Positions 1,963 through 9,059 of a stretch of 23,206 nucleotides of DNA are shown here, in pieces; position 1 is the first letter of the stretch, and every line of letters begins with the position of its first letter. The position numbers were made by a program, and so were the translations under genes. Source of the DNA: a virus. Under the pieces are notes generated by a model that worked only from the letters and a program-made list of their open reading frames with translations, was not told the origin of the DNA and did no database searches. Location of the stretch: IMG/VR virus record IMGVR_UViG_3300012964_000058, positions 1 through 23,206 of that record. One strand, 5' to 3'.

Positions 1963-2415
1963 TTAAGCTTTTTTGCTTTTTGTGTTCTCGTCATCCGCTT
2001 CATCTGTTTCTGCAGATTCAATCGGAGCGCGTTCAATTTTGAGTTCCTTGATACGCTCTTCAACGGCTAACGCCACGCGCTTGTCGAGTTTAGCATCGCC
2101 AAGCCATCCATTAAGGGAATCCGGATTGACGGTATTTTTTACGAGTTCTATGGCCTTATTGGCCGTAAGTTCTGACAACTTTTCCGCTGTACGAACTGGT
2201 TTGCCTGGGCCAGACGGGGTTTTGGCTTCGATTTTTATAAGGTCGCCACTTGCCAACACGTCCTTAACATGAGGGGCTAAATGTTCCCATTCCAGTTCCG
2301 ATATTTCGTTCACGCCGGGTAAAAGTCTGATGAAACTTTTTTTCGGCATTGCTTTGCCCTCTATGGGCACGATTGACATATGCTTGATGCACTCTTTATT
2401 CCATTGTACTAACAT
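1963..2415 (-). CDS. Conserved phage protein between major capsid and adaptor genes
   Basis: A 150-residue protein starting at ATG 2415, chosen because AAGGA precedes it by 8 nt. The longer open frame (to 2553) would run back into the capsid gene. The N-terminal half has a beta-type LLPGVNEISELEWEHL segment. The C-terminal half is helical and charged (KLSELTANKAIELVK, then RVALAVEERIKELKIE) and ends in an acidic/lysine tail. I have seen proteins of this style after capsid genes in siphovirus-like genomes, but no function is known to me. A structural or head-assembly role is inferred only from its place between the major capsid gene and the adaptor gene. Confidence 0.75.
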   Translation of the reverse strand: MLVQWNKECIKHMSIVPIEGKAMPKKSFIRLLPGVNEISELEWEHLAPHVKDVLASGDLIKIEAKTPSGPGKPVRTAEKLSELTANKAIELVKNTVNPDSLNGWLGDAKLDKRVALAVEERIKELKIERAPIESAETDEADDENTKSKKA

Positions 2416-7890: not shown

Positions 7891-7919
7891 TAGACTATTT
7901 ATTAAACTTTTTATATTAT
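7891..7919 (+). promoter_or_regulatory. Sigma70-like promoter for the plus-strand three-gene unit
   Basis: TAGACT (7891-7896) and TATTAT (7914-7919) are separated by exactly 17 nt. The -35 matches consensus at four of six positions and the -10 at five of six. The predicted start near 7926-7927 would place the leader hairpin at the very 5' end of the RNA. The -10 coincides with that of the minus-strand promoter. Confidence 0.5.
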
Positions 7920-7943
7920 ACTATTAACGGAGCCGGGAATCAA
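7915..7943 (-). promoter_or_regulatory. Near-consensus sigma70 promoter for the head structural operon
   Basis: Reading the minus strand, TTGATT (7943-7938) is followed after 17 nt by a perfect TATAAT (7920-7915). This predicts a transcript from about 7908 running left through the leader hairpin into the 494-residue gene and the capsid genes. The -35 element lies inside the loop region of the plus-strand leader hairpin, and the -10 palindrome is shared with the plus-strand promoter. Confidence 0.6.
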
Positions 7944-7956
7944 ACCCCGGAACCGT
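7927..7956 (+). promoter_or_regulatory. 5' leader stem-loop of the plus-strand transcript
   Basis: ACGG (7927-7930) pairs with CCGT (7953-7956). After a symmetric AG/AA internal loop, CCGGG (7933-7937) pairs with CCCGG (7946-7950) around an 8-nt loop. With transcription starting near 7926, this hairpin would form the 5' end of the RNA and could protect it from decay. The minus-strand reading resembles a tRNA T-arm but has no matching acceptor stem. Confidence 0.5.
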
Positions 7957-7980
7957 AAAACAAAATAAGAGGTAATGAAT

Positions 7981-8400
7981 ATGAGCGCATACACTGTAAA
8001 TAAAAAACACATAGACCTGCTGGTAACTGGACTGTCTTGGGTGAATAATGGAAGCATTTCCGATGTGATGAGAACTTTTGGATTGAATAGCGGGGACGAT
8101 AATGAATTTGATTTTATCGGTCGATTATTATGGAATGAAAATTACGTGTCCGTAAATACCCGATACAAAGAACAAATCGTCTATCCAGAATATAAATACG
8201 CGGCTAATAAAGAATTTATTTTCGGAGCCGATCACGATAAAAAAATAGTATCTATGTTAAAGCAAATTCATTGCTATAACTACCAATCTTGCGAAACACA
8301 AGAATGGTATACCAGTACCGCTTGCAAAATGATGGAATATTTAGAAAAAAGACTGATACAAAAATTGTCTGGGTATGAAGCCGCGCCTTGGGGAATATAA
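7981..8400 (+). CDS. Conserved small accessory protein, 139 aa
   Basis: ATG 7981 is preferred over ATG 7975 because AGAGG lies 8 nt before it but only 2 nt before the other. The protein (SAYTVNKKHIDLLVTGLSW, then IGRLLWNENYVSVNTRY, then IHCYNYQSCET near residue 100, ending APWGI) resembles a soluble family common in phages and plasmids, whose members share a W/N-rich middle, a CYxYQSCE-type motif and an APWG-like end. I know of no function. Its codons are visibly more AT-rich than the neighbouring structural genes, which fits acquisition as an accessory gene. Its stop codon directly abuts the hammerhead ribozyme. Confidence 0.85.
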   Translation: MSAYTVNKKHIDLLVTGLSWVNNGSISDVMRTFGLNSGDDNEFDFIGRLLWNENYVSVNTRYKEQIVYPEYKYAANKEFIFGADHDKKIVSMLKQIHCYNYQSCETQEWYTSTACKMMEYLEKRLIQKLSGYEAAPWGI

Positions 8401-8454
8401 CCGCCTGACGAGTGCCCCGGCGTAGGGGACGAAACCGGGGAAACCCGGTCGCGG
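8401..8454 (+). ncRNA. Type I hammerhead self-cleaving ribozyme
   Basis: All core elements are present in order. Stem I is CCGC (8401-8404) with GCGG (8451-8454). The core is CTGACGA (8405-8411). Stem II is GT/AC plus CCCC/GGGG with one bulged G8414 and a six-base loop (8419-8424). GAAA (8431-8434) follows. Stem III is ACCGGG (8434-8439) with CCCGGT (8444-8449), closed by a GAAA tetraloop. The cleavage triplet GTC ends at C8450, so the predicted cut is between 8450 and 8451. Stem I carries the open ends, making it type I. CCTT (8386-8389) and AAGG (8463-8466) could extend stem I beyond an internal loop that might contact loop II. Cleavage would leave the downstream message with a 28-nt leader that keeps its ribosome-binding site. 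Activity is inferred from structure. Confidence 0.88.
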
Positions 8455-8478
8455 AAAACGCAAAGGAAGGAAAGTAAA

Positions 8479-8643
8479 ATGGAAATAACACTCAAAAATA
8501 AACAGGTAATACGCGGCGTCTACGTGTCGGAAACCGCGCTGGAATTGCGGCTTTTCGATGTGATGGCGGGCTGTATGAAGTCGGTAAATCGGGCGGACAT
8601 TGCGGCACTGGCTATGGTGTCGTTTACGAGAGGTGGGACATGA
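8479..8643 (+). CDS. Small protein, 54 aa, possibly Sm-like fold
   Basis: ATG 8479 is preceded by GGAAGG at 8-nt spacing, and the stop overlaps the next start as ATGA. The sequence starts MEITLKNKQVIRGVYVSE and continues ALELRLFDVMAGCMKSV, then NRADIAALAMVSF. The strand pattern (nucleobase-binding-type KNKQVIRGV turn, hydrophobic LELRLF strand, late DIAAL) vaguely recalls the Sm1 motif of Hfq/LSm proteins. The similarity is weak and unproven. Translation would proceed on the RNA released by the upstream hammerhead ribozyme. I do not otherwise recognise it. Confidence 0.75.
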   Translation: MEITLKNKQVIRGVYVSETALELRLFDVMAGCMKSVNRADIAALAMVSFTRGGT

Positions 8644-8855
8644 GTTCTAAAAATCTCACTGAATTACCTTATGTAAACACCCCAGTGGGCAAGGAACAAA
8701 TGTGGGAATTTTTTGACGAGTACAAGCAATGGGCGCAGTCCAACATGCGCAACGTGGATTCTTACGTAACCCCGTTTTCATTGTATACGGCGTCTCGGCT
8801 TCTCGCTGCGGAAAATGAAATAAAAAAGCTGAAAACAACACTCAAAACCACGTAA
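8640..8855 (+). CDS. Hypothetical protein, 71 aa
   Basis: The start overlaps the preceding stop as ATGA, with AGAGGTGG a few bases upstream, so it is coupled to the 54-residue gene. It is a soluble, helical protein: a KEQMWEFFDEYKQWAQSNM helix, then TPFSLYTASRLLAAENEIKK, ending in a lysine/threonine tail. No motif is recognised. It is the last gene of the plus-strand unit, with the terminator starting 24 nt after its stop. Confidence 0.75.
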   Translation: MSSKNLTELPYVNTPVGKEQMWEFFDEYKQWAQSNMRNVDSYVTPFSLYTASRLLAAENEIKKLKTTLKTT

Positions 8856-8858
8856 AGA

Positions 8859-9059
8859 CTAACCCTCCCGCCGTACCCGCTCCCGGCCTTGCACTATTGG
8901 TTGGGAGCCTTTTTCCGGCTTGCGGAACCGTTCGCGCCGCTCCACCGCTATGTCGATGTCAGGGCAGTTCTCATTCAGCGTTATCACCACCTTGCCGTGT
9001 GGCGTGGTTTCAATTGCGTGTTTTATTGCCGCCATTGCCGCGTCTGATAGTTTGTTCAT
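8859..9059 (-). CDS. Hypothetical small protein, 66 aa
   Basis: ATG 9059 has AGGA at 7-nt spacing. The protein begins with an alanine-rich helix (LSDAAMAAIKHAIETT), then HGKVVITLNENCPDIDIAVE, then a basic tail (RRERFRKPEK). Short proteins with an HGKVxIxLNE...DIxxExRxRF pattern occur in other phages without assigned function. Its C-terminal codons contain the plus-strand terminator arms, which may explain its Arg/Gly-rich end. It follows the MuF and 86-residue genes in the packaging/head cluster. Confidence 0.7.
   Translation of the reverse strand: MNKLSDAAMAAIKHAIETTPHGKVVITLNENCPDIDIAVERRERFRKPEKGSQPIVQGRERVRREG
8879..8914 (+). terminator. Intrinsic terminator of the plus-strand unit
   Basis: GCTCCCGGCC (8879-8888) pairs with GGTTGGGAGC (8899-8908) as a 10-bp stem with two G-U pairs around a 10-nt loop, followed by C and five T. 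The poly-T lies on the plus strand. The element overlaps the C-terminal codons of the convergent minus-strand 66-residue gene, so one sequence serves both. Confidence 0.85.

Follow-up and report, generated by a model that had tools for sequence, protein, structure and literature searches.

The purpose of the hammerhead ribozymes found in phages has been a question since 2011. Clustered copies in the prophages of Agrobacterium tumefaciens, Azorhizobium caulinodans, and Clostridium scindens lie between phage operon genes and were proposed to cut long transcripts to gene-length mRNAs, and those of A. tumefaciens undergo cleavage upon expression in E. coli (PMC3088659). In the haloviruses HF1/HF2 a transcript 5' end maps at most 3 nt from the hammerhead site (PMC3088659). 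Perreault et al. listed the intergenic hammerhead of phage PaP3 among active ribozymes with core variations, while 4 of the 18 consensus hammerheads that they tested were without cleavage (PMC3088659). The literature thus supports intercistronic self-cleavage for the class, and we infer it for the copy described here. The preliminary description of this DNA had treated the intergenic setting as special, which was an overstatement since both intergenic and clustered phage hammerheads were already reported in 2011 (PMC3088659).

The window (the whole stretch of viral DNA analyzed here, 23,206 nt) represents part of a tailed-phage genome, and its minus strand carries the genes for portal, capsid, head protease, terminase, and recombinase. 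The predicted ribozyme lies inside a three-gene cassette on the plus strand (7981-8400, 8479-8643, and 8640-8855), with the following features.

7981-8400 (+): upstream gene, 139 aa, with AGAGGT at 7968-7973; its stop codon adjoins the ribozyme
8401-8461 (+): predicted type I hammerhead ribozyme including the pseudoknot tail (sequence, pattern, covariance models)
8401-8404 (+): stem I 5' strand CCGC, adjoining the TAA stop (sequence, pair check)
8405-8411 (+): core box CUGACGA (sequence)
8412-8430 (+): stem-loop II, 2 + 4 bp with bulged G8414 and loop GGCGUA at 8419-8424 (sequence, pair check; same bulge in locus L145)
8420-8423 (+): loop II strand GCGU of the predicted pseudoknot (class-level support)
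8431-8434 (+): core box GAAA; A8434 is A15.1 and pairs with U8449 (U16.1) (sequence, pair check)
8434-8449 (+): stem-loop III, 6 bp with GAAA loop at 8440-8443 (sequence, pair check)
8448-8450 (+): cleavage triplet GUC, predicted cut between 8450 and 8451 (sequence; cut position from hammerhead chemistry)
8451-8454 (+): stem I 3' strand GCGG, predicted 5' end of the downstream product (sequence, pair check)
8458-8461 (+): tail ACGC, predicted to pair with loop II before cleavage; CGC at 8459-8461 can pair with GCG at 8451-8453 (product hairpin)
8463-8470 (+): Shine-Dalgarno-like AAGGAAGG of the downstream gene, entirely 3' of the predicted cut (sequence)
8479-8643 (+): downstream gene, 54 aa, start codon 28 nt past the predicted cut
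8640-8855 (+): third gene, 71 aa, with an ATGA overlap with the downstream gene
8879-8914 (+): terminator-like 10-bp hairpin followed by CTTTTT, z -2.5

We found that the sequence layout confirms 8401-8461 as a complete type I hammerhead. Stem I is the open helix, stems II and III are closed by the loops GGCGUA and GAAA, and the NUH triplet at the stem III/I junction is GUC, with C8450 as H17. A base-by-base check of stem II pairs GU 8412-8413 with AC 8429-8430 and CCCC 8415-8418 with GGGG 8425-8428, while stem III is formed by A8434-U8449 together with CCGGG 8435-8439 and CCCGG 8444-8448. The three helices comprise 16 pairs, all of them Watson-Crick, and the core follows the consensus throughout. 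The preliminary description had given the full type I layout, with coordinates for the core and for the end of the cleavage triplet, and these are exact to the base. The interval that it assigned, 8386-8470, does contain the ribozyme; its 5' end was drawn too wide, as 8386-8400 is coding sequence and stop codon, and the functional unit is 8401-8461. The pseudoknot, the product hairpin, and the position of stem I flush with the upstream stop codon were absent from it. Our data suggest that this RNA very probably cuts itself and would thereby divide a long message in two.

The first gene of the cassette does not generally come with the ribozyme. The product of that gene (7981-8397, plus strand; loci L221-L300) belongs to a widespread phage family with conserved CYxYQSCE and LPGYEAAPWG motifs, for which we found no Pfam or NCBIfam model above cutoff. 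Its relatives are usually without a ribozyme, a point against a working ribozyme in the window: only 2 of 80 loci have a nearby match, neither at the same site, one being a good match about 1 kb upstream that carries a U4C core change and the other a weak match just upstream. A U4C change of the hammerhead core is known from a viroid with reduced activity. Locus L226 contains a hammerhead-like element at 1425-1491 with this core change (CCGAUGA) and otherwise intact helices, located just past a stop codon. Relatives of the 54-aa and 71-aa genes were looked for and none were found, and none of the three operon genes matched a defence or curated family. The hairpin at 8879-8914 is the probable end of this small operon, and a consensus scan missed it because its loop is 10 nt long. 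We found no close relatives of the window phage by upstream gene, capsid, or exact ribozyme sequence, and none at the DNA level among annotated phages. Two further observations concern the window itself. The leader of the small operon contains a stable hairpin at 7927-7956 (plus strand) with a CCGGG/CCCGG stem, the same sequence as stem III of the ribozyme, and the leader from 7910 to 7985 folds with a z of -4.2. At the contig edge, 22710-23192 (minus strand) is a highly repetitive ORF with VSGDAEVSGNA-like repeats, probably encoding a left-handed beta-helix protein.

We compared the window copy with the described phage hammerheads. The PaP3 copy that we found (NC_004466, about 44110-44036, minus strand), which from the phage and the intergenic position we infer to be the copy tested by Perreault et al., is likewise type I, lies between two small phage genes, and has a GUC site. 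Its stem I, too, starts 1 nt past a TAA stop, and it has a possible 4-bp pairing between loop II and tail (GAUU/AAUC, compared to GCGU/ACGC in the window). The two copies differ in sequence and stem lengths, and PaP3 has a much longer stem-loop III, an unbulged stem II, and a listed core variation (PMC3088659), in contrast to the consensus core of the window copy. The HF1/HF2 hammerhead (HHphage) resembles the window copy in lying just 5' of a gene, but has a core insertion near stem I, belongs to a high-salt archaeal host, and precedes the first gene of its transcript. The prophage clusters share the position between phage operon genes but have several copies per operon, compared to one in 23 kb here.

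Similar elements are numerous in viruses and bacteria. Searching viral contigs for the hammerhead core pattern gave at least 120 stretches, and a structural filter at least approximately 130 complete type I viral copies, many of which are grouped between genes of one contig; with covariance model R2 (see below) up to 8 hammerheads were found in single viral contigs. Scanning for the same stem I yielded 57 stretches from viral contigs, and a further 46 came from bacterial genomes, most of them Paenibacillus and allied genera. The CCGC-stem type I hammerheads of IMG/VR contigs and Paenibacillus/Cohnella (L011, L145, L160, L178, and others) share with the window copy its stem I, its core, the loop II-tail pseudoknot, and a tail, (C)CGCA, after 3-8 nt, and L145 even has the same bulged G in stem II. 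Most of them have a 4-bp GCGG-N4-CCGC product hairpin, while that of the window has 3 bp and a 5-nt loop. Our data indicate that the window copy is a well-formed new example of a known phage hammerhead class and does not define a new one. The same-stem copies also include ten loci in the chromosome of Arthrospira sp. PCC 9108 (CP066886.1; L175, L176, L183, L185, L195, L197, L200, L204, L214, and L219), and the tails that we inspected hardly differ from one another, suggesting that this cyanobacterium has a hammerhead within a repeated mobile element. In locus L053, at about 1521-1580 and about 1973-2030 (plus strand), the stem I 3' strand coincides with, or continues into, the following gene's Shine-Dalgarno AGGAGG, and cleavage would therefore release a ribosome-binding site held in stem I.

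In the window, stem I starts at the base right after the upstream TAA stop (8398-8400), and both the ribosome-binding site and the start codon of the next gene lie entirely 3' of the predicted cut. A similar placement is seen across phages. In 41 of 137 viral copies stem I is immediately preceded by the stop codon of an ORF with at least 60 aa, compared to 108 of 7500 random sites in the same loci, and a start codon with a ribosome-binding site is found within 60 nt downstream of 86 of 137 copies, compared to 1084 of 7500 random sites; the ORFs come from a simple caller, related phages are non-independent, and the p-values are nominal. The UGA of the core is itself a stop codon in 24 of 137 copies (16 of 7500 random sites), which is less telling as other CUGANGA sites reach 31 of 343. 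Placement of phage hammerheads flush with stop codons is a regularity that may be new.

A second regularity concerns the tail. In the window copy, loop II (GCGU, 8420-8423) and tail (ACGC, 8458-8461) are predicted to form a 4-bp pseudoknot, and 3% of its own tails, when shuffled, reach 4 bp with loop II. Statistical support for this pairing is at the level of the class: 25 of 49 same-stem relatives have at least 4 bp between loop II and tail, whereas exchanging tails among copies gives 12.6, with 20 as the highest value of 2000 trials. In other hammerheads, cleavage is accelerated by pseudoknots that join stems I and II (PMC3088659). The tail may also pair with the 3' strand of stem I. CCGC follows GCGG after 3-8 nt in 46 of 83 distinct same-stem copies, compared to 2.3 expected, often with a GNRA-type loop, and the hairpin so formed often has 4 bp; the putative hairpin of the window copy would be a weaker form (GCG-GAAAA-CGC, 3 bp). 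Tail-stem I pairing also occurs with other sequences (e.g., GUGG/CCAC, UGACA/UGUCA, and GACAG/CUGUC): 26 of the 106 copies whose stem I differs show it, compared to 10.1 with swapped tails (maximum 19 in 500 trials). Pseudoknot and product hairpin are separable in relatives such as L142, L145, and L148, and among hairpin-bearing copies the loop II helix reaches into the hairpin loop in 13 of 46, compared to 5.0 (p 0.0005). Pairing of the tail with the stem I 3' strand across relatives may be a new regularity; a partial literature search found no description of a tail used in both ways, and its novelty is unproven.

Taken together, we consider it likely that the type I hammerhead is functional and that, from its place between the first two genes, it cuts the polycistronic mRNA while both reading frames stay whole. 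Once transcription passes about 8461, stems I-III would form and loop II would pair with the tail (GCGU/ACGC), docking stems I and II side by side, and the RNA would cut itself between C8450 and G8451. The upstream message would retain its stop codon and gain a 2',3'-cyclic phosphate at a structured 3' end, while the downstream message would begin with a 5'-OH GCGG located 28 nt ahead of the start codon and retain its own ribosome-binding site. After the cut the 4-bp stem I would dissociate, and the tail could pair with the freed stem I strand (GCG-GAAAA-CGC); this product hairpin would cap the new 5' end and in effect prevent reversal of the cut. The effect on gene expression would be that two genes of one transcript have separate mRNA fates.

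The position of the ribozyme raises the question of whether translation could control the cut. A ribosome on a stop codon covers about 11 downstream nucleotides. Terminating at 8398-8400, it would cover exactly the 5' strand of stem I and the core, so heavy translation would block the cut and leave the stem I 3' strand to pair with the tail, while a drop in translation would let the ribozyme fold and separate the genes. The strong enrichment of flush stop codons across phages is consistent with such a switch, as is a tail for which both loop II and the stem I 3' strand are possible partners, and with the nucleotides up to 8411 covered the product hairpin is predicted with P 0.91. However, the flush placement is explicable by compact phage genomes together with the need to retain the stop codon, enrichment alone is no proof of regulation, and the alternative hairpin of the window is only 3 bp; we therefore regard this switch as unlikely. 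That phage type I hammerheads are in general translation-aware intercistronic cutters, with the window copy as one instance, is a proposal that we hold just as tentatively. In it, tail-loop II pairing would mark the cutting state and tail-stem I 3' strand pairing the uncut or product state, with ribosomes on the upstream gene deciding whether the mRNA is split, an assignment of states that is doubtful to the same degree.

The preferred reading, a ribozyme that cuts, also has to be weighed against a hammerhead-derived remnant that is inactive or cuts too slowly to matter in the window phage. Stem I has only 4 bp and stem II is bulged, both of which count against activity, and longer RNA offers competing folds. 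The minimum-energy fold of the isolated 8398-8462 is exactly the hammerhead structure, at -25.3 kcal/mol; this energy is ordinary for the composition (z -0.8), and folding energy was rejected as evidence on that ground. When flanks are included (8401-8480), the energy model, which is without pseudoknots and core contacts, favours the product hairpin over stem I (P of stem I about 0.01), a preference that we take as a warning on the activity of the predicted ribozyme. The copy also falls under the Rfam cutoff: RF00163 (Hammerhead_1) is the best hammerhead match in the window at 17.2 bits, compared to a gathering cutoff of 34, and an Rfam scan of the window at the gathering cutoff gave no match. 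This cutoff is uninformative on membership here because the PaP3 copy, for which no Rfam hammerhead is reported even at E 10, and twelve hammerhead-bearing phage loci, several with at least 5 copies and none with an Rfam hammerhead at cutoff, are missed as well. Scans with Rfam at default cutoffs widely overlook phage hammerheads. A weak match to Rfam c4-a1b1 on the minus strand (16.7 bits, cutoff 46.7) overlaps the stem III palindrome and was taken as chance.

We built two covariance models from which the window was left out. R1, based on 49 viral same-stem copies, scores the window copy at 54.2 bits (E 5e-11), a value that is inflated because its copies were picked for that stem. R2 was built from 19 copies that differ in stem I; it scores the window copy at 23.1 bits (E 1.7e-5), with the next match at E 0.15, and recovers the PaP3 copy at E 1.2e-8. 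A hammerhead covariance model was the check proposed in the preliminary description, and with Rfam the outcome is divided: RF00163 ranks best among the hammerhead matches and its score stays below its cutoff, a result that the misses in PaP3 and other phages make uninformative. Covariation counts on alignments A1 and A4 were not taken as proof because the patterns used to pick members fix or demand those pairs. Decay should leave damage in the core or helices, and here the core is entirely consensus and every helix pair is intact; the short stem I is common to relatives, and the bulged G recurs in L145. A decayed or inactive remnant is thus improbable, and less probable than the translation-coupled switch.

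Hammerheads are simple, very large databases can be expected to contain consensus matches (PMC3088659), and the window was chosen by a motif-seeking reader, all of which would favour the view that an intercistronic gap resembles a hammerhead by chance. A search for the core pattern gave one match in the window and none in 100 shuffles, and even a descriptor with looser stems gave only 4 matches among 103,500 windows simulated with a Markov model at matched size and composition (about 4e-5 per window). These counts, the matching pseudoknot, and a location right behind a stop codon, as is typical of the class, make coincidence extremely unlikely, in agreement with the earlier judgment. The type I reading is borne out by sequence, statistics, about 130 other viral copies, both covariance models, and the PaP3 copy. 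A circular or trans-ligated RNA product, as in viroids and retrozymes, is a role that hammerheads have elsewhere (PMC7761336) and is very improbable here in place of mRNA processing, as scans with R1 and R2 find a single copy in 23 kb, flanked on both sides by protein-coding genes, instead of tandem or paired hammerheads bounding a repeat unit, and a search by Perreault et al. for circularized or spliced RNA from the clustered prophage hammerheads was negative (PMC3088659).

The window copy offers a clean and compact test case, with one ribozyme, three small genes, and a probable terminator, for a self-cutting element between phage genes. The regularities of the class are more interesting than the single copy. 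Both of them, the placement flush against stop codons and the tail whose two partners exclude each other, are general and testable, and they point to intercistronic mRNA processing in phages, perhaps with translation coupling.
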